Assembly: GCA_030447005.1 (NCBI GenBank)
Contig: JAUJME010000038.1
Span: 1 to 10,803 of the forward strand
Direction of reading: 5' to 3'
DNA: 10,803 nt
Source of the DNA: Solirubrobacteraceae bacterium
GTDB lineage: Bacteria; Actinomycetota; Thermoleophilia; Solirubrobacterales; Solirubrobacteraceae
Made by a program: the position numbers and the translations under genes. How positions within the stretch are numbered: the stretch's first letter is position 1; each line of letters begins with the position of its first letter. Shown here piece by piece: positions 1 through 9,549 of this stretch. Under the pieces are notes generated by a model that had not been told where the DNA came from, did not search any database, and saw only the letters and a program-made list of their open reading frames with translations.

Positions 1-1205
1 CGGGCAAGCTCGCCGACCGGATCGTGCTGCCCTCGTTCCTGCTCGCCGGTGCGGTCCTGGCGGCGACGCGGAATCCCACCCGCGCGGCGTCGATCCTCAT
101 CACCGACTTCGCGACCGGCATCCGCGTCTCCGTGCCGACGGCCGTCCTCGCCGCGATGACGAGCGCGGCACAGGCCGGGGTGGTGATCCGGAGTGGACGG
201 GCGCTCGAGCAGCTCGCCGGCGTCGACGCCGTCGTCTTCGACAAGACGGGGACCATCACCGAAGGCAACCCGGCCGTCGTCGGCGTCGAGAGCGTCACCA
301 GCGCGCTTTCGGCCGACGAGATCCTCGCCATCGCGGCGACCGCCGACCAGCGGCTCAGCCACCCCGTCGCCGAGGCGATCGTCCGCTACGCCGCGGCCGC
401 AGGCGTGACGCCGGGGCGCAGAGGCCGGTGGAACTACGACATCGGCCTCGGCGTGCGCGCGGAGATCGGCGGGCAGGAGATCCTGGTGGGGAGCGACCGG
501 CTGCTCGCACGCGAGGGGGTCGACCTGACCCCGGCGGCGCCGTTCTCAGACCGGCAGTCGCGCATCTATGTCGCTGCGGACGGCGCGCTGTGTGGCGTGA
601 TCGCGTACGCGGACCCGATCCGCCGGGAGGCCGAGCACGTCGTCGGCGCGCTCCGCGAGCGCCACGGCATGGAGATCCACCTGCTGACCGGCGACAAGAC
701 GGAGACCGCGCACGCCGTCGGCCGGCGCCTCGGCATCGACGCCGTGAACGTCCACGGCGAGCTGTTCCCCGAGGACAAGGCCGCCGTGCTCCGCCAGCTG
801 CGCGCGCAAGGCCGCCGGGTCGCCTTCGTCGGCGACGGGATCAACGACCTTCCGGCGCTGGCCTACGCCGACGTCTCCGTGTCGTTCGGCGGCGCGACGG
901 CCGTCGCGCGCGAGACGGCCGACGTGGTGCTGATCGAGGACAGCCTGCACGCGCTGCCCGCGGCGGTCGCCGCCTCGCGGCAGGCGATGCGCCTGGTGAA
1001 CCAGAACATCGGCATCGTCGGCGCCGTCAACCTGACGGCGCTGACCGTCGCCACGGCGACCGGGCTGTCGCCGACGACCGCCGCGGTCGTGCACAACGGC
1101 TCCACGGTGGTAGCAGCCCTCAACGGCCTACGGCCACTGCTCGGATCCAACGGGCGCAAACGCCGGGCCGAAGGCGATCGGACACAGGAGACCACGCATG
1201 GGTGA
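1..1205 (+). CDS. Heavy-metal (P1B-like) P-type ATPase, C-terminal part, 5' end outside window
   Basis: Membrane ion pump that uses ATP hydrolysis through a phospho-aspartate intermediate; in this family it usually exports transition metals. The frame is open from base 3 to the TGA at 1203-1205, and residues before the in-frame GTG at 24 continue the protein, so the true start lies off the left edge. Numbered from that GTG, visible parts are a membrane segment (about 2-15), the transport-site helix (about 24-45), DKTGTIT with the phosphorylated Asp73, the HP motif of the nucleotide-binding domain (113-114), TGD (222-224), GDGIND (270-275) and a final helix pair ending HNGSTVVAALNGLR. The oddity is at the transport site: where P1B pumps carry CPC, SPC, TPC or CPH, this one reads FAT (29-31, in TDFATGIRVSVPT), with no Cys or His. 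Substrate is therefore uncertain. The last 8 bases overlap the next gene, suggesting coupled expression. Confidence 0.9.
   Translation, partial: GKLADRIVLPSFLLAGAVLAATRNPTRAASILITDFATGIRVSVPTAVLAAMTSAAQAGVVIRSGRALEQLAGVDAVVFDKTGTITEGNPAVVGVESVTSALSADEILAIAATADQRLSHPVAEAIVRYAAAAGVTPGRRGRWNYDIGLGVRAEIGGQEILVGSDRLLAREGVDLTPAAPFSDRQSRIYVAADGALCGVIAYADPIRREAEHVVGALRERHGMEIHLLTGDKTETAHAVGRRLGIDAVNVHGELFPEDKAAVLRQLRAQGRRVAFVGDGINDLPALAYADVSVSFGGATAVARETADVVLIEDSLHALPAAVAASRQAMRLVNQNIGIVGAVNLTALTVATATGLSPTTAAVVHNGSTVVAALNGLRPLLGSNGRKRRAEGDRTQETTHG
1186..1190 (+). promoter_or_regulatory. Shine-Dalgarno AGGAG for the small protein at 1198
   Basis: AGGAG lies 7 bases before the ATG at 1198, inside the end of the ATPase gene. 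It is one of the clearest ribosome binding sites in the window and supports the small overlapping gene as real and translated. Confidence 0.7.
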
Positions 1206-1452
1206 CAACGGGAAGACGGGCTCGCAGATGTGGAAGGGTGCGCGCCGCGGCGCCGGCTGGGCGCTCGGGGTGGGCGGCGTGATCTCGGCCGCCGCCGTCC
1301 TCCGGGACGGGCCGCGGGACACGGTCAAGGCGATGATGAAGGCCGGGATGCGCGGGCGCGAGGTGGCCGCCGAGGTCTCCGAGCAGGTGCAGGACCTCTA
1401 CGCCGAGGCGCAGGCCGAGCGGTTCCCCGCGCCTGAGGCGGCGGATCGCTGA
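1198..1452 (+). CDS. Small membrane-associated protein, DUF1490/PacL-like, partner of the P-type ATPase
   Basis: 84 residues. It has a short polar start, a Gly/Ala-rich hydrophobic segment (about 17-35) that could be one membrane helix with small-residue packing, and a long amphipathic helix (about 42-75, ending VQDLYAEAQAER). This layout, and its position overlapping a metal P-type ATPase, match the actinobacterial DUF1490/PacL proteins, which scaffold metal-efflux ATPases such as mycobacterial CtpC. In known PacL proteins a His/Asp-rich tail binds metal; here the tail (FPAPEAADR) has no His or Cys, so metal delivery is unlikely and a structural role fits better. The start is well supported: ATG with AGGAG 7 bases upstream. 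The family assignment is from remembered sequence character, not a search. DUF5132-type small proteins, also found beside metal ATPases, are the main alternative. Confidence 0.72.
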   Translation: MGDNGKTGSQMWKGARRGAGWALGVGGVISAAAVLRDGPRDTVKAMMKAGMRGREVAAEVSEQVQDLYAEAQAERFPAPEAADR

Positions 1453-1478
1453 CCGGCGCGCGCCGCGGATGAAGGGAT

Positions 1479-1516
1479 GAGGGGAGGGCCGCCAGGAGGG
1501 TCCGGCCCCCCCCTCT
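1479..1516. terminator. GC-rich hairpin between convergent genes, candidate terminator
   Basis: GAGGGGAGGGCCG (1479-1491) pairs with a downstream CGG, C-run and TC (1503-1516) around an 11-base loop, leaving one internal bulge. It sits between the stop of the small gene at 1452 and the stop of the ZIP gene at 1546, where a terminator for either strand is expected. There is no T-tract, so it is not a textbook intrinsic terminator; T-less hairpins are common in GC-rich Actinobacteria. Confidence 0.5.
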
Positions 1517-1520
1517 GATG

Positions 1521-1536
1521 CCGCCGTGGGGCGGCA
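1521..1536. terminator. Second short hairpin, likely ends the ZIP transcript
   Basis: GCCGCC (1521-1526), loop GTGG, GGCGGC (1531-1536): a perfect 6-bp stem lying 9 bases beyond the ZIP stop codon on the minus strand. Its placement suits minus-strand termination. No T-tract is visible on either side. Confidence 0.4.
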
Positions 1537-1545
1537 AGGCAAGCT

Positions 1546-2724
1546 TCAGGCGGTCACCAGCAGGCCGGTGACGTAGAGCACGGCGACGCCGGTGAGGATC
1601 CCGCCGACGCTGGCCGGGTGCAGCGCCCGGCCGGCCGCGTCGCGGATGGACGGGATGAGCTGAACGATGACCTGGGCGATGGCGCCGATCCCGAGCCCGA
1701 GCAGCAGCCCGGCGACCTCGGCGTTGTAGGCCGATGCGCCGATCACCGCGCCGACGCTGGCCGGCGCGCCGGCGATCAGCCCGAGCATGGCCAGCCGCGC
1801 GAGCCGGGGTCGCTCCTCGCTCAGCGGGGCGACGATCGCCAGGCCCTCGGTCGTGTTGTGCAGCGCGAAGCCGAAGATCAGGAACGTCCCGAGGGCGAGC
1901 GCGCCGACGGCGTACGCGGAGCCGATGGCCAGCCCCTCGCCCAGGTTGTGCAGCCCGATCCCGATGGCGATCATGAGCGCCAGCCGCTCGCCCGAGGCGC
2001 CGCTGCGGCCGGCGGCCTCGCGCCGGGCTCGCAGCGCGCGGTCGAGGGCGGTGAGGCCCAGATAGGCCGCGACGGCGCCGATGATCACCAGCTCGACGCC
2101 GCCGAGCGCGCCGGAGCTCTCGCCGGCGATCTCCGAGCCCTCGAGCCAGGCGTCGACCGCGAGGAAGCCGAGCAGGCCGACCGTGAGGGCCATCAGGAAG
2201 CGGACCCAGCCCGGGTCGATCCGGCGCAGCAGTGGGAGGAACAGCATCCCGAGAATCACGGGGATCACGCCGACGTAGATGCCGATGAGGATCATCAGCC
2301 CGATGAAGCCGCCGCCCGTCTGCGGGGTCGCCACGGCGGCTTCGATCTCGTGCTCGATCGTCGCGCCCGTCGAGGTGAGGAGCGTCACGAGGTAGGGCGA
2401 GTCGGCCTGCCACGGGTAGTCGAGCCGCAGCGTGCGGGTCCCGAGGCGGCCGACCTCGCCGCCGTCGGAGGAGTAGTCGACGTAGGCGTCGTTGACGAAG
2501 ACCTGCGCGACCTGCGCGGCGTCGGGGCCCGCGTTGCGCAGCGTGAGGATGATCTCGCCCGGCCGCAGCTCGGTGCGCTCGACGGCGAGGTCCTCGGCGG
2601 GCGGCCCGGTGCGCTCGCCGAGCGTCGAGCCCCCGAAGGCCAGCAGGGCGACCAGCGCGGCCGCGATCAGCGCGAGCGGGACCAGCGCGAGGGCCCAGGT
2701 GGGCAGCTTTCGGATGGCGTCCAT
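1546..2724 (-). CDS. ZIP-family metal transporter with N-terminal extracytoplasmic domain
   Basis: 392-residue membrane protein. The C-terminal part (about 141-390) carries eight hydrophobic segments and the two metal-site motifs of ZIP carriers: HNLGEG (259-264) and HNTTEG (289-294), in adjacent helices as in ZupT/GufA-type proteins. ZIP proteins move divalent metals (Zn, Mn, Fe), usually into the cytoplasm. Unusually, a first membrane helix (7-30) is followed by about 110 non-membrane residues predicted to be beta-rich (LRPGEIILTLRNAGPDA), resembling CARDB/Ig-like export-side domains. The ATG at 2724 overlaps the oxidase stop as TGATG, and GAGG lies 7 bases before it, so the two genes are translationally coupled. 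Upstream open sequence in this frame is antisense or overlapping coding with no ZIP character and was excluded. Family call firm; metal and direction inferred. Confidence 0.88.
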   Translation of the reverse strand: MDAIRKLPTWALALVPLALIAAALVALLAFGGSTLGERTGPPAEDLAVERTELRPGEIILTLRNAGPDAAQVAQVFVNDAYVDYSSDGGEVGRLGTRTLRLDYPWQADSPYLVTLLTSTGATIEHEIEAAVATPQTGGGFIGLMILIGIYVGVIPVILGMLFLPLLRRIDPGWVRFLMALTVGLLGFLAVDAWLEGSEIAGESSGALGGVELVIIGAVAAYLGLTALDRALRARREAAGRSGASGERLALMIAIGIGLHNLGEGLAIGSAYAVGALALGTFLIFGFALHNTTEGLAIVAPLSEERPRLARLAMLGLIAGAPASVGAVIGASAYNAEVAGLLLGLGIGAIAQVIVQLIPSIRDAAGRALHPASVGGILTGVAVLYVTGLLVTA

Positions 2725-3782
2725 CACGTGACCTCGAAGAAGCCCATCCAGCCGAGCTCGGCGAACTCGGTCTTGTGGGCGTGGAACATGACGCGGCCAC
2801 CCTGGGTGTCGCGGAAGCGCATCTCGAGGATCCCCCGCTGCGCCTGGGTGAGCGCGATCGTGTCGGTGAGCTCTGACGGCTGCAGCGACGTGCCGGTCGG
2901 GAAGTAGTTGAAGAACTGCCCGTGGACGTGGAAGGAGTTGATCGGGTCGTACTCGAGCGCGTTGATCAGGTAGATCCGCACGAGCTCCCCGCGCTTGACC
3001 TTGACCGGCTCGTTGTTGTGGTGGAAGGCGACCGTGTTGACCGCGTAGACCTGGTTGCCCTCGGCGTCGAAGTTCGTGTTGAAGCCGTTCATCACCATCA
3101 CCAGCTCGTCGGCCTCCGGCCGGCCCGCCTTCGGATCGATGATGAACGCGCCGTAGAGGCCGCGGGCGATGTGCTCGGCGAGCGGGCTGACGTGGCAGTG
3201 GTACAGGTGGCAGCCGAACGGCTCGGCGTCGAACTCGTAGACCGTGCTCTTGCCGGGCGCGATGGCGCCGTCGCCCTCCTCGGGGATGCCGTCCATCGCC
3301 GGTGCGTGGAAGCCGTGGAAGTGCATCGTGTGCGGGTGCTCGCTCCCGTTGACGAAGCGGACGCGCAGCTTGTCCCCCTCGCGGCAGCGCAGCGTCGGCC
3401 CAGGGATGCGGCCGTTGAAGGTCCACGCCGGGAACTTCACGCCGGGCGCCACCTCGATCTCCTTGTCGGCGGCGAACACGGTCCATTCGCGCAGCGTCCG
3501 GCCGCTCGCGAGCCTCGTCGTCTTCCCGTAGTCGAAGTCGCGCAGGATGTCGGTGGGGTTGAAGCCGTTCGCGCGGTGATCGACGACGTCGCCGTGCCGG
3601 AAGGTCGGTCCGTTGACCCCCCCGCCGTGATCCATGCCGCCGGGCTTGCGGGTCGCCTGCCCGCCCGCCGCGGACGCGGTGCCGTGCAGCGAGCGGTGCG
3701 GGACGAGCCCGTGAAGGAGGGGGACGGAGGCGGCGGTCGCGCCGAGCGCTCCCAGCGCCTGTCGCCGGTTGAGGCGTTTCAT
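2724..3782 (-). CDS. Tat-exported two-domain multicopper oxidase, type-1 copper in domain 1
   Basis: 352 residues, a laccase-like oxidase expected outside the membrane. The start KRLNRRQALGALGATA is a twin-arginine signal (about 1-40). Domain 1 has HTMHFHGFH (151-159) and HLYHCHVSPLAEH (192-204); domain 2 has FHVHG (284-288) and FHAH (333-336). Together these give all eight histidines for a trinuclear copper site (154, 156, 195, 197, 285, 287, 334, 336). Type-1 copper ligands occur only in domain 1: His151, Cys196, His204, with Leu209 at the axial position. In domain 2 the equivalent positions are Asn282 and Ala335. This is the arrangement called type C among two-domain oxidases; nitrite reductase is unlikely because the trinuclear set is complete and the axial residue is not Met. 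Substrate unknown; metal-ion oxidation (Mn, Fe or Cu) suits the neighbouring ZIP and metal regulator. Start has no strong Shine-Dalgarno. Confidence 0.93.
   Translation of the reverse strand: MKRLNRRQALGALGATAASVPLLHGLVPHRSLHGTASAAGGQATRKPGGMDHGGGVNGPTFRHGDVVDHRANGFNPTDILRDFDYGKTTRLASGRTLREWTVFAADKEIEVAPGVKFPAWTFNGRIPGPTLRCREGDKLRVRFVNGSEHPHTMHFHGFHAPAMDGIPEEGDGAIAPGKSTVYEFDAEPFGCHLYHCHVSPLAEHIARGLYGAFIIDPKAGRPEADELVMVMNGFNTNFDAEGNQVYAVNTVAFHHNNEPVKVKRGELVRIYLINALEYDPINSFHVHGQFFNYFPTGTSLQPSELTDTIALTQAQRGILEMRFRDTQGGRVMFHAHKTEFAELGWMGFFEVT
2732..2735 (-). promoter_or_regulatory. Shine-Dalgarno GAGG for the ZIP gene, inside the oxidase gene
   Basis: On the minus strand GAGG is followed after 7 bases by the ATG at 2724, which shares its A with the oxidase TGA (TGATG). 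This fixes the ZIP start and indicates re-initiation by ribosomes finishing the oxidase. Confidence 0.6.
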
Positions 3783-3815
3783 GATCCGGATTCAAGCACG
3801 GGTATCGTCCGTTCA

Positions 3816-3850
3816 ACAAAGATCGTTTGGGTTCCCCAAAACTATCTTGT
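3816..3850. promoter_or_regulatory. 35-bp symmetric dyad, candidate operator of the DtxR/MntR-type regulator
   Basis: Centred on 3833, an inner perfect arm TTTGGG (3826-3831) / CCCAAA (3835-3840) with a 3-base centre is flanked by symmetric outer ACAA (3816-3819) / TTGT (3847-3850). It lies in the only AT-richer stretch of the window, between the oxidase start and the regulator promoter. It is 34 bases from the oxidase ATG and just upstream of the regulator -35. DtxR-family proteins bind palindromes of about 19 bp or more, so self-recognition is plausible. Binding itself is inference. Confidence 0.6.
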
Positions 3851-3858
3851 GCCACAGC

Positions 3859-3886
3859 TTGACCATGCCTTGGCGACCCCTAGACT
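3859..3886 (+). promoter_or_regulatory. Housekeeping-type promoter of the metal regulator, leaderless transcript predicted
   Basis: TTGACC (3859-3864), a 16-base spacer and TAGACT (3881-3886) make a good sigma70-like promoter. The -10 ends 7 bases before the ATG at 3894, the spacing typical of leaderless actinobacterial mRNAs, and no Shine-Dalgarno precedes that ATG. Transcription should therefore begin at or within a base of the start codon. Confidence 0.65.
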
Positions 3887-3893
3887 CGACGCG

Positions 3894-4652
3894 ATGGCGC
3901 CGACCGACAGTGCGAACCGGTGCTCCGCGACGGTCGAGGACTACGTGAAGGCGATCCTGCGCTCCGCCCGCGGCCCGCGCAGGATCGCGTCCACGACGGG
4001 GGTCGCCGAAGCGCTGGGCATCACGCCCGGCTCGGTCTCGGCGATGTTCAAGCGACTCGCCGATCTACAGCTCGTCATCCACGTCCCGTACCACGGCGTG
4101 ACCCTCACCGGCGACGGCGAGCGACTTGCGTTGCGGATCGTCCGCCGGCACCGGCTGCTCGAGACCTTCCTCGTGCAGACGCTGGGCATGCCGTGGGACC
4201 GGGTGCACCTGGAGGCCGATCGGCTCGAGCATCACCTCTCCGAGGAACTCGAGGAGCGGATCGCCGCGACCCTCGGCGAGCCCACCGTCGATCCTCACGG
4301 CGATCCCATCCCCTCGGCCGATCTCACCATGCCCGTCGACGACACGGTCGCCCTCGTGGAGCTCCAGGCGGGTCAGTCGGGCGAGGTCGCCAGCGTCTCC
4401 GACAGCCACCCCGAGATGCTCCGGTACCTGTCCGACGTCGCGGGGATCGGCCCGGGCACCCGGTTCGCGGTGCAGGACAGGCAGCCGTTCGGCGGCCCGC
4501 TCATCCTGCGCATCGGCTCGCGAGCCGTGGTGCTCGGCGCACCGCTGGCCGGCTCGGTGCAGGTGCGGCTGAGCCGCGCGCCGGCGGCTCCTCAGGCGAT
4601 CGCGCCCGCCGCCACGAGCGACAGCACCAGCGCGCCAAGCGCGATCCGGTAG
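3894..4652 (+). CDS. DtxR/MntR-family metal-dependent transcriptional regulator with C-terminal SH3-like domain
   Basis: 252-residue metal-activated DNA-binding protein. Order: winged helix-turn-helix (about 12-75, with SVSAMFKRLADLQLV and wing PYHGVTLT), dimerisation/metal domain (76-142, ending DPHGDPIP), and a FeoA/SH3-like domain (about 150-226). Against remembered IdeR and MntR sequences, His86, Glu90 and His105 match one metal site. The second site has Asp16 (Met10 in IdeR, Asp8 in MntR), Asp109 (Cys102 in IdeR, Glu99 in MntR), Glu112 and His113. The missing Cys and the Asp at position 16 favour manganese over iron, though Lys19 stands where MntR has Glu11. It probably controls the divergent oxidase-ZIP operon and itself through the dyad at 3816-3850. 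The last ~24 residues are an Ala/Pro/Ser tail that runs antisense into uppP. Start chosen by family N-terminus and promoter spacing. Confidence 0.92.
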   Translation: MAPTDSANRCSATVEDYVKAILRSARGPRRIASTTGVAEALGITPGSVSAMFKRLADLQLVIHVPYHGVTLTGDGERLALRIVRRHRLLETFLVQTLGMPWDRVHLEADRLEHHLSEELEERIAATLGEPTVDPHGDPIPSADLTMPVDDTVALVELQAGQSGEVASVSDSHPEMLRYLSDVAGIGPGTRFAVQDRQPFGGPLILRIGSRAVVLGAPLAGSVQVRLSRAPAAPQAIAPAATSDSTSAPSAIR

Positions 4653-5419
4653 GCGACGAAGATGCCGACCGAGTGGGTCTCGAGGTAGCGCAGCAGCCAG
4701 GCGATGGCCGCGTAGCCGACGACGAAGGAGACGACCGTGGCCAGCGCCACGGCCGCCGCGCTCTCCCCGCCCGCCCCCTCGCCGCCCCCGAGCGCGTCGC
4801 CGAGCTGGTAGAGCCCGCTCGCCAGGACCGCGGGGATGGCGAGCAGGAACGAGAACCGGGCCGCCGCGGCGCGCTCGAGCCCGAGCAGGAGGCCGGCGGT
4901 CATCGTCGCCCCCGAGCGCGACACGCCGGGGATCAGCGCGGCGGACTGCGCGAGGCCGATCAGCACGCCGTCGCGCACGGAGAGGGCGTCGAGGTCGCGC
5001 TCGTGGCGCCCGACGCGGTCGGCGAGCAGCAGCAGGAGGGCGAAGCCGATCAGCACGGAAGCGATGAGGACGAGGTCGCGGCCACCCGTCTCGATCTGGG
5101 CCTGGAACGCGAAGCCGAGCAGCCCGATCGGCACCGTGGCCACGACGATGAACCAGCCCATCCGCACGTCGGGATCGCGGCGCAGCGCCGGGTCGCCCAG
5201 CGCCCGCAGCCACTTCGTCGCGATCCGCCACAGGTCGCGCCGGAAGTAGATGAGGACCGCCGCCTCCGTCCCGAGCTGGGTGACCGCGGTGAACGCCGCG
5301 CCGGGGTCCTCCCAGCCGAGCACGGCCGGCACGATCCGCTGATGGGCGCTCGAGGAGATGGGGAGGAACTCGGTGAGGCCCTGGATGAGGCCGAGCACCA
5401 GCGACTGGAGGAGGCTCAT
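4592..5419 (-). CDS. uppP: Undecaprenyl-diphosphate phosphatase (UppP/BacA)
   Basis: Integral membrane enzyme that dephosphorylates undecaprenyl diphosphate, recycling the lipid carrier for peptidoglycan and other surface polymers. 275 residues, the usual size. The first signature LTEFLPISSSAH (15-26, with Glu17, the Ser triplet and His26) and the second PGVSRSGAT (164-172, with Ser167 and Arg168) are both intact, and several hydrophobic helices follow the family pattern through to the C-terminus. I chose the ATG at 5419 because the protein then begins MSLLQSLVLGLIQG as in homologues; an in-frame GTG at 5431 would add four residues. It follows the GGDEF gene by 46 bases on the same strand, so co-transcription is likely. 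Its 3' end overlaps the convergent regulator by 61 bases. Confidence 0.95.
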   Translation of the reverse strand: MSLLQSLVLGLIQGLTEFLPISSSAHQRIVPAVLGWEDPGAAFTAVTQLGTEAAVLIYFRRDLWRIATKWLRALGDPALRRDPDVRMGWFIVVATVPIGLLGFAFQAQIETGGRDLVLIASVLIGFALLLLLADRVGRHERDLDALSVRDGVLIGLAQSAALIPGVSRSGATMTAGLLLGLERAAAARFSFLLAIPAVLASGLYQLGDALGGGEGAGGESAAAVALATVVSFVVGYAAIAWLLRYLETHSVGIFVAYRIALGALVLSLVAAGAIA

Positions 5420-5442
5420 GCGGCTGGGCACCCTAGCGGCGC

Positions 5443-6085: not shown

Positions 6086-6120
6086 CGCGGCGGGGGAGGC
6101 CGTTCCGCCGCGGTTATCGT
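6086..6120. promoter_or_regulatory. 8-bp inverted repeat and -10-like element in the GGDEF/pncB divergent spacer
   Basis: CGCGGCGG (6086-6093) and CCGCCGCG (6105-6112) form a perfect inverted repeat with an 11-base spacer. Immediately after it TATCGT (6115-6120) fits the TANNNT -10 pattern and would put the pncB start site a few bases before its ATG at 6132. The dyad would cover the -35 region. This could be a repressor site, but GC-rich palindromes arise easily by chance here. Confidence 0.35.
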
Positions 6121-6131
6121 CCCTGGTTCGC

Positions 6132-7229
6132 ATGAGCACCGGCACGCGCGCCCGCCTGAGCCCCGAGGTCTTCCGCCTGCCGCTGGCCAAGCTCCGCTCG
6201 GGCTACTACTCCGACGCCTACTTCACGCACACGAAGGCGCTGCTCGAGGCGGAGGGGCACCGGCCGCACGTCCTCATGCAGGTCTTCCAGCGCGAGGCGT
6301 CGTTCCTGGGCGGCGTCGACGAGGCGGTGGCGATCCTCCGCGGCTGCACGGGACGCTGCGCGCCCGACGGCGGCTGGATCGACGGCTGGGACGAGGTCGA
6401 GGTCCGCGCCCTGCACGAGGGCGACGAGATCGCACCGTGGGAGACCGTGATGACGATCGAGGGCGACTACTCGCTCTTCGCCCACCTCGAGACGGTCTAC
6501 CTCGGCTGCATGGCCCGCCGCACGCTCGTGATGCGCAACGTCCACGAGGTGGTCGAGGCCGCCGGCGGCAAGGCGATCCTCTACTTCCCCGCCCGCCACG
6601 ACCACTGGCTCGTGCAGACGGGCGACGGCTGGGCGGCGCACGTGGCCGGGGCGATCGGCGTCTCCACCGACGCGCAGGCGTCGTGGTGGGGCGGGCGCGG
6701 CGTCGGCACGGTCCCGCACGCGCTGATCGCCGCCTACGGGGGCTCGACGGTCGCCGCCGCGCGGACCTTCGCGCGCCACTTCGCCGACCAGATGCGGATC
6801 ACCGTGCTGGTGGACTTCGAGAACGACTCGGTGCGCACCGCACTCGAGGTCGCCGACGCGCTCGGCGACGATCTCTGGGGCGTGCGCCTGGACACGTCGG
6901 AGCGGCTCGCCGACGCCGGGCTGGTCGCGCGCATGGGGGAGGAGGCCGCGCCGCGCGGCGTCGCCCCCGAGCTCGCCGAGCTCGTCCGGACCGAGCTCGA
7001 CCGTGCCGGCCACCAGCGGGTGCGGATCGTGGCGTCGGGCGGCTTCAACGCGGAGCGCATCCGCGCCTTCGAGGCGGCCGGCGTCCCCGTCGACGCCTAC
7101 GGGGTCGGCTCGGCGCTCATCCGCGGCTCCAACGACTTCACGGCCGACATCGTGCTCAGCGACGGGCGCCCGGTGGCCAAGGCGGGCCGCGGCCTGCGCC
7201 CGAACGACCGCCTCGAGCTCGTCACCTAG
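6132..7229 (+). CDS. pncB: Nicotinate phosphoribosyltransferase
   Basis: 365 residues; joins nicotinate to phosphoribosyl pyrophosphate to give nicotinate mononucleotide in NAD salvage, in the cytoplasm. Recognisable parts are the N-terminal YYSDAYF (25-31), VFQREASF (51-58), GVSTDAQASWW (176-186), GTVPHALIAAYGG (192-204) with His196 a candidate for the phosphorylated/active-site His, VDFEND (227-232), GVRLDTSERL (250-259), ASGGFN (301-306) and DAYGVGSAL (321-329). It resembles the shorter archaeal-like NAPRTase class rather than the E. coli form. The ATG at 6132 begins MSTGTRARLS; long open sequence upstream in the same frame is antisense to the GGDEF gene and was excluded. No Shine-Dalgarno is present, consistent with a very short leader. 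PncA, which makes nicotinate, is encoded nearby on the other strand. Confidence 0.94.
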   Translation: MSTGTRARLSPEVFRLPLAKLRSGYYSDAYFTHTKALLEAEGHRPHVLMQVFQREASFLGGVDEAVAILRGCTGRCAPDGGWIDGWDEVEVRALHEGDEIAPWETVMTIEGDYSLFAHLETVYLGCMARRTLVMRNVHEVVEAAGGKAILYFPARHDHWLVQTGDGWAAHVAGAIGVSTDAQASWWGGRGVGTVPHALIAAYGGSTVAAARTFARHFADQMRITVLVDFENDSVRTALEVADALGDDLWGVRLDTSERLADAGLVARMGEEAAPRGVAPELAELVRTELDRAGHQRVRIVASGGFNAERIRAFEAAGVPVDAYGVGSALIRGSNDFTADIVLSDGRPVAKAGRGLRPNDRLELVT

Positions 7230-7844: not shown

Positions 7845-8393
7845 TCAGCCCGCGTGGGCCACCTCGGCGCCGGCCGCCCGGAGCTCGTCGAGCGCGCGGT
7901 CGGCGTCCCGCGGCTCGACGTCGACGCCGCACACCGCGCCCTCGTCGACCCGCACCGCCAGCCCGGCGCGGAGCGCGTCGAGCGCGGTGTGCTTGACGCA
8001 GTAGTCCGTCGCCAGGCCGACGACGGTGACCTCGTCGACCCCCCGCTCGGCGAGCAGGGCGGCGAGCTCGGTGGCCTGGAAGCCCGAGTAGCCCTCCGTG
8101 TCGCGGGCCTGGCCCTTGTCGATCACCACGTCGACGTTCGCGCGCTCGAGCGAGGGATGGAGCTCGGCCCCGGGTGTGCCCTGGACGCAGTGGACGGGCC
8201 AGGTGCCGCCCTGCTCGGTGAACGATCCGTGGTCCGGAGGGTGCCAGTCGCGGGTGGCGACGACCAGGTCGAAGTCGCCCGAGCCCGCGAGCGCGTTGAT
8301 CCGCGGGGCGATCTCGTCGCCGCCGGCCACGCCGAGCGCGCCGCCCGGCGTGAAGTCGTTCTGGAAGTCGACGACGATCAGCGCGCGCGGCAT
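7845..8393 (-). CDS. pncA: Nicotinamidase (isochorismatase-like hydrolase)
   Basis: 182 residues; hydrolyses nicotinamide to nicotinate and ammonia, feeding PncB in NAD salvage. The catalytic triad is visible: Asp9 in VVDFQNDF, Lys93 in DKG and Cys132 in TDYCV. Metal ligands known in mycobacterial PncA have counterparts in RDWHPPDH (Asp49, His51, His55), and GTWPVHCVQGTPG (63-75) supplies the conserved His68 region. Length equals that of known nicotinamidases. The ATG at 8393 is fixed by the family start MPRALIVVDFQNDF; open sequence upstream in the frame lies inside the eRF1-like gene and was excluded. The eRF1-like gene ends 10 bases upstream and pcm follows, so it sits inside an operon. 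Another isochorismatase-superfamily amidase is possible but less likely given pncB nearby. Confidence 0.93.
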   Translation of the reverse strand: MPRALIVVDFQNDFTPGGALGVAGGDEIAPRINALAGSGDFDLVVATRDWHPPDHGSFTEQGGTWPVHCVQGTPGAELHPSLERANVDVVIDKGQARDTEGYSGFQATELAALLAERGVDEVTVVGLATDYCVKHTALDALRAGLAVRVDEGAVCGVDVEPRDADRALDELRAAGAEVAHAG

Positions 8394-8403
8394 GGGATCG
8401 AGC

Positions 8404-9549
8404 CTAGTAGCGCAGGATGGCCCCGATGCCGCCGTGGGCGCCCAGGTCGGCGAAGCGGCGGATGACCCGGACCGCGGCCGACTGCTCCATGGCCTTCTCG
8501 ATCGCCGACTCGACGATGTCGGGTTGTGCCTCCAGCTGCGGCTCGTCGACCGGGACGGTCCCCGCGTCGGCGGTGAGCATGCCCGTCCGGATCTCGACGA
8601 GGCCGCTCGAGCGGAAGCCCTCCTCGAGCAGGAGCACCTCCACCTTGAACTCGTTGAGGGCCTCGAGCGTCGGCTGCAGCCCGGCCGTCGCGCGCCCACC
8701 GCGGCCGATCTCCTGGGCGAAGCGGTCGAGCACCTCTCGCTCGCGCAGCCGCTCGTCCTCGTCGATCACCGGCGCGGCGGCCTCGCGGACCTCGTCCGTG
8801 GAGGAGTTCTCGATGTCGATCGAGATCCGGCCGGCGAGCTTCTCGGCGAGGTAGGGATGCAGGTGGCTCTCCATCTCGCTCGTCAGCTCGGGCGGTGTGC
8901 CCACCAGCAGCCGGTCGAACGGGCGGCGCTTGAAGTAGCGGAAGAGCTCCTGCGCGACGTGCTCGAGGTGGTCGCGCTTGTCCTCCTCGACGCTGCGCTC
9001 GTAGCGCGCCTGCGACCAGCCGCCCTGCGAGTGCTGGTTCTTGACCTCGTCGTCGATGCGCCCGAGGTCGGTGAAGCCGGTGGCGGCGCCGATCAGCACG
9101 CGCGCCGTGCGCCGGTTGGCGAGCAGGATGCAGACCCGCTCGGCCTCGCCCTGCAGGACGAGCGGCTCGAGGTAGGCCGTGTGGTTGACGATCGCCCTCG
9201 ACTCGATGGGGTGCGGCAGGGGGACGACCTCGAGCAGGTCGGCCGGCGCGCAGGCGTAGACCGCGAGGCCCTGGACGCCGCCCGACGCGATGTCGCCGCC
9301 CTCGAGGACCTCCTTGACCCGCTCGACGTCGGCGCGCAGCGCCTGGTGCTCGTCGTGCTCGAGCCCCTCGGCCTCCTCGACCCGATGCGAGGCCTCGGTG
9401 AGCACCGAGGTGATCGCGGTGGCGCGCGCGGCGCCCGTCGCGAACTCGCTCGGGTCCAGGTTGAGGAAGACGGAGAGGACGCGGCCGCGGTCGGGGTGCA
9501 GGTCGGCGAGGCGGCGCAGCCGGCCGCGGGTGAGGGTGGGAGCAGCCAT
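8404..9549 (-). CDS. Bacterial eRF1-like (baeRF/Vms1-like) protein with GGW in place of GGQ
   Basis: 381 residues with the plan of archaeal/eukaryotic release factor 1. An N-terminal domain is followed by an RNase H-like central domain (about 135-270). A C-terminal L7Ae-like domain (about 275-381) ends AHGGIGAILRY, nearly identical to the end of aRF1/eRF1. In the central domain, the loop equivalent to GGQSxxRF reads GGWSQARYER (176-185), so the peptidyl-hydrolysing Gln is a Trp, with Gln180 two residues on. Bacterial members (baeRF families, actinobacterial Vms1-like factors) are thought to act in ribosome rescue or nascent-chain release from stalled 50S subunits. The C-terminal domain lacks the Cys zinc motif of aRF1. 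It lies 10 bases after the nucleotidyltransferase-fold gene and 10 before pncA. Fold assignment is confident; biochemical role is inferred. Confidence 0.85.
   Translation of the reverse strand: MAAPTLTRGRLRRLADLHPDRGRVLSVFLNLDPSEFATGAARATAITSVLTEASHRVEEAEGLEHDEHQALRADVERVKEVLEGGDIASGGVQGLAVYACAPADLLEVVPLPHPIESRAIVNHTAYLEPLVLQGEAERVCILLANRRTARVLIGAATGFTDLGRIDDEVKNQHSQGGWSQARYERSVEEDKRDHLEHVAQELFRYFKRRPFDRLLVGTPPELTSEMESHLHPYLAEKLAGRISIDIENSSTDEVREAAAPVIDEDERLREREVLDRFAQEIGRGGRATAGLQPTLEALNEFKVEVLLLEEGFRSSGLVEIRTGMLTADAGTVPVDEPQLEAQPDIVESAIEKAMEQSAAVRVIRRFADLGAHGGIGAILRY

Follow-up and report, generated by a model that had tools for sequence, protein, structure and literature searches.

In a stretch of 10,803 nucleotides from a Solirubrobacteraceae bacterium (contig JAUJME010000038.1, assembly GCA_030447005.1; hereafter the window), a gene coding for a two-domain multicopper oxidase is followed by a gene for a metal carrier of the ZIP family and faced by a gene for a regulator of the MntR/DtxR type. 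The coupling of oxidase and ZIP carrier is real and near-obligate, and the pair is often plasmid-borne. With a confidence that lies a little above even, we read it as a unit for the acquisition of manganese, possibly of manganese and iron, that is controlled by an MntR-type regulator, and the findings suggest an oxidase-assisted route of manganese uptake in this soil bacterium.

Manganese uptake in bacteria is usually described via Nramp and ATP-binding cassette (ABC) carriers. If our reading is true, the conserved pair of oxidase and ZIP carrier, with its MntR-type regulation, would extend this picture by a ZIP route assisted by redox chemistry; a large group of unassigned two-domain copper oxidases, including the one with the solved structure 3GDC, would gain a function, and one could test directly why a copper enzyme is encoded next to a metal carrier and a regulator of the manganese type. 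Published work is cited below by PMC accession.

Conservation of the oxidase-ZIP pair

Since the oxidase stop and the ZIP start overlap by one base (TGATG), both genes very probably form one operon. In the best 80 of at least 564 genome loci, ranked by ZIP similarity, an oxidase gene lies directly upstream of the ZIP gene and on the same strand in 76 cases, with 6-186 bases between the matched ends. The four loci without an adjacent oxidase comprise L065, which starts at a contig edge, and the true exceptions L072, L074 and L076. The nearest locus, L001, belongs to an uncultured Solirubrobacteraceae bacterium whose oxidase and ZIP carrier are 93% and 92% identical to those of the window.

The pairing was also followed in 296 genomes from the phylum of L001, in which part of the first-look candidates for ZIP, oxidase and Nramp were scored. 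Of these genomes, 31 have the ZIP carrier (36 matches) and 28 have an oxidase match at E<=1e-100 (31 matches). All but one of the 31 oxidase matches lie directly upstream of a ZIP gene, and the remaining one is a contig-end piece from a genome that has the other part beside a ZIP gene. Conversely, 31 of the 36 ZIP matches have the oxidase directly upstream; three of the other five lie near a contig start (G270, G038:C133, G228:C56) and two (G158, G227) match weakly and only in part. Eight genomes, in which the oxidase match is weaker (E 1e-70 to 1e-85), have no such ZIP carrier and look like an outgroup.

Among 72,556 plasmid records, 150 contain ZIP matches, and 74 of the 150 are predicted to be conjugative. 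Twenty-three of them (L120-L142), picked for taxonomic spread, were inspected; they span Actinomycetota, Alphaproteobacteria, Cyanobacteriota, Deinococcota, Bacillota and Halobacteria, that is, six phyla including haloarchaea. The oxidase gene is directly upstream of the ZIP gene in all 23, and the inferred copper histidines, the cysteine of the type 1 (T1) copper site and the ZIP motifs are intact in every pair, at identities to the window of 47-68% for the oxidase and 37-61% for the ZIP carrier. The initial annotation had proposed the oxidase-ZIP coupling from the window, and the loci, the genomes and the plasmids alike bear it out. In the literature searched, we found no functional study of a bacterial oxidase-ZIP pair.

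Seven proteins joining oxidase and ZIP-type sequence occur among the best 120 long ZIP relatives, and six of the seven were inspected. In P0249, P0254, P0263, P0272 and P0285 the junction is out of frame by eye, and these were taken as frameshift products; P0255 is in frame, but it begins within the oxidase and stands for a single cluster (5 member sequences, 1 contig). We rejected such fusions as proof that oxidase and carrier touch, and none of them is used as evidence here.

Copper sites of the oxidase and metal motifs of the carrier

The putative T1 ligands of the window oxidase, assigned with the help of the copper nitrite reductase pattern, are H149, C196 and H204 with L209 as axial residue, all in the N-terminal domain. 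In the second domain, the place where a T1 cysteine would sit (position 335) is taken by alanine in the window oxidase and in 73 of the 76 loci, and otherwise by glycine or serine. Four HxH motifs distributed over both domains provide the histidines of the trinuclear site (H154/156, H195/197, H285/287, H334/336). These eight histidines and the T1 His-Cys-His set are invariant in all readable sequences of the 76 loci (75-76 readable per position), and the axial residue is leucine in 40 and methionine in 36. A twin-arginine motif was read by eye at the N-terminus, and the enzyme is probably exported by the twin-arginine (Tat) route. Since the T1 site lies in the N-terminal domain and none is seen in the second, the oxidase, judged by its sequence, fits the definition of the type C two-domain multicopper oxidases, which have the T1 copper site in the N-terminal domain only (PMC13151041).

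The closest solved structure is 3gdc (E 2.6e-126), followed by 7rab. 3GDC, the best structural relative by sequence, is presumably the multicopper oxidase of Arthrobacter sp. FB24, on whose plasmid 1 the regulator gene is divergent from the oxidase-ZIP genes, as in the window. One rival reading is an organic substrate, with a laccase acting on phenols or polymers for which the ZIP carrier would only supply metal or be a bystander. The enzyme class is broad, and an oxidase of Rhodococcus opacus that shares 57% identity with 3GDC has been grouped with laccase-like enzymes possibly acting on polyethylene (PMC8556283); in the sections available, 3GDC serves only as the structural reference for that laccase-like protein. 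Against this reading, a free-standing laccase would not be expected to keep a single type of carrier beside it almost without exception in different phyla, and metal regulators adjoin the pair. We consider a laccase function very improbable, and the substrate of the oxidase is most likely a metal.

ZIP carriers are known for the transport of divalent ions and are generally an importer family. The window carrier has the HN..E and N..E motifs of transmembrane segments TM4 and TM5, and among 60 sequences H259, N260, E263 and N290 are present in all and E293 in 59. Its score with the Pfam Zip model stays below the gathering cut-off (26.7 versus 35.1 bits); the fold test places it in the ZIP fold, no other Pfam family matches it, and many of its relatives are assigned to PF02535. 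With BbZIP of Bordetella bronchiseptica it shares the ZIP fold and the HN..E metal motif, whereas BbZIP lacks the ectodomain of the window carrier. We know of no oxidase partner of BbZIP.

The adjoining regulator

The window regulator exceeds the cut-offs for the DNA-binding domain (PF01325, 43.3 bits) and the metal and dimerisation domain (PF02742, 107.6 bits) of the DtxR type and for the FeoA domain PF04023. It misses the cut-off of the curated MntR equivalog NF047407 (182 versus 350 bits). Its best match in the PDB is 5zr4 (9.3e-45), which we take to be the structure of DR2539 of Deinococcus radiodurans. In an alignment of 40 regulators, one of them gapped, the metal site is of the Asp/Glu/His type without Met or Cys, with D16 in 32, H86 in 39, D/E109 in 39, E112 in 38 and H113 in 39 sequences, and Lys or Arg occupies position 19, which corresponds to Glu11 of MntR, in 38. 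DR2539 likewise has a Lys at the MntR Glu11 position, together with a C-terminal SH3-type part that is also found in the window regulator, and it acts as a repressor of mntH in response to Mn(II) or Fe(II) (PMC3327659). It is the closest characterised type, with the difference that mntH is an established target of DR2539, while the window regulator is known here from sequence. The regulator gene overlaps the convergent UppP gene by 61 bases (4592-4652).

In 38 of the 80 loci a relative of the window regulator is encoded no further than 1.5 kb from the pair, in divergent orientation in eight, downstream in 20 and upstream in ten. A gene of the DtxR/MntR type also adjoins the pair in 11 of the 23 plasmids (six checked by model and five assigned by annotation). 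The conservation of the oxidase-ZIP-regulator trio, on which the initial annotation had staked its reading, was checked and did not overturn it. Four of four alphaproteobacterial regulators beside the pair exceed the curated MntR equivalog NF008273 (205-240 bits, cut-off 153), and those beside the pair in Deinococcus and Halomarina are below the cut-off of every curated model tried.

Candidate operators

The perfect palindrome TTTGGGTTCCCCAAA, located between the oxidase and regulator genes, is the sole match in the window to its own pattern with two mismatches allowed (0.02 expected); it was also scored as terminator-like. A fixed TTTAG operator motif was discarded. Because this motif had been chosen after the palindromes were seen, it was replaced by a search through every possible 5-mer half-site, with spacers of 3-8, upstream of 74 oxidase genes (73 loci and the window), with single-base shuffles as controls and z-scores calculated against half-sites of equal A+T. 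By z-score, TTTGG-N5-CCAAA ranks first, being present in 12 of the 74 regions including that of the window (shuffle mean 0.23, largest 3), followed by TTTGG-N4, TTCGG-N4, GTTTG-N6 and TTTAG-N6, in this order. At least one of TTTGG-N5, TTTGG-N4 and TTTAG-N6 is present in 26 of the 74 regions. These three classes are absent from all ten loci in which the regulator gene precedes the oxidase on the same strand, where the promoter may lie further up.

The KTTAGNNNNNNCTAAM pattern has 28 sites in ten genomes versus 13 for the reversed control. Six of the sites precede an oxidase gene, one an Nramp gene (G317) and one the gene of a DtxR-type regulator (G008); in G317, the palindromes ahead of Nramp and of the oxidase are the same and are the only two sites for the pattern in this genome. 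In two of six alphaproteobacterial loci, exact ATAGC-N4-GCTAT sites are found ahead of the oxidase, two in Phyllobacterium and one in Shinella. Shinella has a further site with one mismatch, and shuffles of both regions give at most 0.006 at one mismatch. The other four loci have only two-mismatch sites (two loci) or none (two loci). The sequence resembles the MntR box of E. coli.

Linkage with Nramp transporters

In eight of the 80 loci an Nramp gene is found at most about 1.5 kb from the ZIP gene, in one of them as a short match (L037) and in one on the opposite strand (L041). In five (L020, L036, L058, L061 and L063) the order on one strand is oxidase-ZIP-regulator-Nramp, and in Deinococcus sp. 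D7000 genes for an MntH-subfamily Nramp protein and a regulator are divergent from the oxidase-ZIP genes. Manganese as the regulating metal, as initially annotated, is supported by the regulator family and by this linkage with Nramp/MntH in some lineages and, for Alphaproteobacteria, by the curated MntR assignments and the MntR-box-like sites.

Nramp is encoded in 141 of the 296 genomes. It is rarer together with the pair, being present in 8 of 29 genomes with a full-score ZIP carrier versus 133 of 267 others (Fisher p 0.03, kinship ignored; G158 and G227 counted without and G270 with the pair), as if the ZIP carrier could stand in for it. At least four of these eight pair-bearing genomes have their Nramp gene no more than 4 kb away from the ZIP gene.

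Electron carriers and other neighbours

A gene for a small Rieske protein directly follows the ZIP gene in 20 of the 80 loci and, by annotation, in 4 of the 23 plasmids (two from Actinomycetota and two from Cyanobacteriota). Two of two such proteins tested exceed the cut-off for the Rieske domain, and export was read from the N-termini of two sequences. In all four haloarchaeal plasmids inspected (L133, L134, L140 and L142), three of which have a near-identical layout, this third gene is instead annotated as plastocyanin/azurin, and one of the proteins scored 68.9 bits with the plastocyanin model, below the cut-off. That this position is shared by electron carriers of two unrelated kinds suggests that electron transfer at the outer face is part of what the pair does, and of all features of the system the third gene is the most interesting and the least explained. 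In both Bacillota plasmids inspected (L136 and L137), TatA is annotated after the ZIP gene, as if the pair brought its own export help. Among other neighbours, for which 100 of about 156 recurring open reading frames (ORFs) were scanned, the cation-efflux (CDF) family is the commonest (8 of the 100).

Proposed function of the pair and competing explanations

In the manganese acquisition that we propose, the regulator would leave the palindrome TTTGGGTTCCCCAAA when manganese in the cell is low, and the divergent oxidase-ZIP operon would be expressed. The exported oxidase would act at the outer face beside the ZIP ectodomain, and the carrier would bring the divalent metal in. The oxidase may help by oxidising Mn(II) before capture, by removing competing Fe(II) or Cu(I), or via a link to an electron carrier, and its step would be part of a redox chain in those lineages that have an exported Rieske or plastocyanin-like third gene. 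A bolder version, which we regard as tentative and rather doubtful, is that oxidase, ZIP ectodomain and electron carrier form one complex at the outer face, a redox-coupled manganese importer under MntR control that spans phyla and is partly plasmid-borne, and in which the redox state of manganese or of a competing metal would be changed at the mouth of the ZIP carrier.

Several observations weigh against manganese acquisition under MntR-type control. Regarding the carrier, the second-site glutamate of BbZIP (E240) is replaced by A322 in the window protein, and sequence cannot tell the substrate of a ZIP carrier or the direction of transport. Regarding the regulator, none of this kind was found beside the pair in 42 of the 80 loci in a search that used the window protein as query and that distant regulators may escape; an ArsR-type regulator is present beside the pair in Cytobacillus, a Fur gene, closest among the curated models to iron Fur though below the cut-off, follows it in Microvirga, and Shinella has, in addition to MntR, a metal-sensing repressor after the ZIP gene. 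MntR can, moreover, also activate efflux genes, as it does with the exporter gene mntP of E. coli (PMC9806134). Regarding the operators, GC-rich half-sites are commoner by raw count, CGCCG-N6 ranking first with 17 regions, and an operator-like box was found in only two of 14 Nramp upstream regions (the 15 Nramp matches without L118, the latter half of a split gene). A half-site of the TTAG type is typical of the DtxR family and not specific for manganese, and it is no proof of this metal since several KTTAGNNNNNNCTAAM sites lie ahead of genes of the iron type (ferritin, two Peripla_BP_2 proteins, imelysin) and further ones ahead of unrelated genes, such as those for an aldehyde dehydrogenase and a biotin carboxylase. 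Finally, some Rhodococcus copies of the pair sit in copper/cytochrome-oxidase islands.

Copper is the main rival, because of these plasmid copies in copper islands and of a proposal made for Nitrososphaera viennensis. In this case the oxidase would convert Cu(I) to Cu(II) outside the cell, and the ZIP carrier would import copper or the pair would detoxify it. In N. viennensis, MCO1 and the adjacent zinc/iron permease were slightly upregulated under copper limitation (log2 0.81 and 1.33), and the authors propose that both serve copper oxidation and uptake (PMC7785015). The initial annotation, which knew of no described system with such a pairing, was too strong in this respect, given that these adjacent genes are in print. 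Like the window pair, to which it is likened by description only, the archaeal pair consists of a two-domain oxidase with an axial leucine and a ZIP-type permease, with copper as the proposed metal and no mention of MntR in the sections available. Several plasmid copies of the pair adjoin CopC, CopD, DUF305, SCO or cytochrome oxidase genes, and the enzyme itself requires copper. Against this stand the linkage with Nramp/MntH and the fact that MntR/DtxR is the most frequent regulator type beside the pair in loci and plasmids, though others occur. We regard a copper unit as unlikely.

An iron unit, with a ferroxidase and iron as cargo, would be an analogue of the yeast Fet3-Ftr1 system, in which Fet3 is a three-domain oxidase. 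Fet3-Ftr1 likewise combines a multicopper oxidase at the surface with a metal permease, and it shows that an oxidase can pass metal to a permease (PMC11817551). It differs from the window pair, which is known from its genes, in that the window oxidase has two domains, the carrier is a ZIP protein instead of Ftr1 and the metal is probably manganese and not iron. The response of DR2539 to Fe(II) as well (PMC3327659), the Fur gene in Microvirga and the oxidation of Fe(II) by a type B two-domain oxidase (PMC13151041) are all in favour of iron. However, ZIP carriers are known to move divalent ions, so that turning the iron into Fe(III) would hamper its uptake by this permease, and the four alphaproteobacterial regulators tested are manganese-type MntR. 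We rank an iron unit just after copper and likewise consider it unlikely.

Detoxification of manganese or of metals in general, for example by oxidation of Mn(II) outside the cell with MntR as an activator, comes next, and we judge it improbable. The activation of mntP by MntR in E. coli (PMC9806134) provides a precedent, some plasmid copies adjoin metal-resistance genes, and cation-efflux proteins are the commonest of the other neighbours. On the other hand, five loci have the pair clustered on the same strand with Nramp, which is a family of importers, and import is also the general rule for ZIP carriers. Manganese acquisition thus remains the reading that we prefer.

ATPase, small partner and further features of the window

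The positions of the features in the window are collected in Table 1.

Table 1. Features of the window around the oxidase-ZIP pair.
Feature	Positions	Strand	Remark
ZIP carrier, 392 aa, extra N-terminal helix and ectodomain	1546..2724	-	
ZIP residues 45-133, beta-sandwich ectodomain inserted ahead of the ZIP core	2326..2592	-	
Two-domain multicopper oxidase, probably exported, 352 aa	2724..3782	-	
Candidate operator TTTGGGTTCCCCAAA, perfect palindrome between oxidase and regulator	3826..3840	no strand	
Promoter-like TTGACC-16-TAGACT ahead of the regulator	3859..3886	+	consensus match only
MntR/DtxR-type regulator with FeoA domain, 252 aa	3894..4652	+	
P1B-type ATPase, C-terminal part	3..1205	+	truncated by the window edge
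Small ATPase partner, DUF5132-like, 84 aa, no histidine	1198..1452	+	
UppP/BacA gene, convergent to the regulator	4592..5431	-	

The initial annotation had described one compact metal block that also included the P-type ATPase and a small PacL-like protein. The genes that it named are all present, but only oxidase, ZIP carrier and regulator belong together, while the ATPase and its partner are a separate unit: relatives of the ATPase (at least 60% identity) are near the pair in just three of the 80 loci, in all three of which a relative of the small partner directly follows the ATPase. A single five-gene system was therefore rejected. The window ATPase scored 343.1 bits with NCBIfam ATPase-IB_hvy, just below the cut-off of 346.25, and has an HN pair (VVHN) near its end; P1B6-like is our guess for its type.

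DUF1490 is the defining domain of PacL proteins, most of which carry a tail rich in histidine at their end; in the related P1B6 group, the ATPase contains an HN motif and its DUF6110 partner lacks such a tail (PMC9374683). The window resembles both the PacL1-CtpC and the P1B6-DUF6110 pairs in that a P1B ATPase with an HN pair lies beside a small partner. This partner, however, matched neither DUF1490 (at E up to 10) nor DUF6110, reached only 22.3 bits with DUF5132 (cut-off 25) and lacks the C-terminal metal motif of the PacL type (DLHDHDH), there being no histidine in its 84 residues, so that the name PacL-like is not supported. A hydrophobic stretch and a Glu/Ala-rich stretch were seen in it by eye only.

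Further along the window, an isochorismatase-family gene (7845-8396, minus strand), by sequence likely a nicotinamidase, is found near a gene of the nicotinate/quinolinate phosphoribosyltransferase type (6114-7229, plus strand), and both could possibly form a salvage pair for nicotinamide adenine dinucleotide (NAD). A homologue of family 10 of the bacterial archaeo-eukaryotic release factors (baeRF) is encoded at 8404-9549 on the minus strand.

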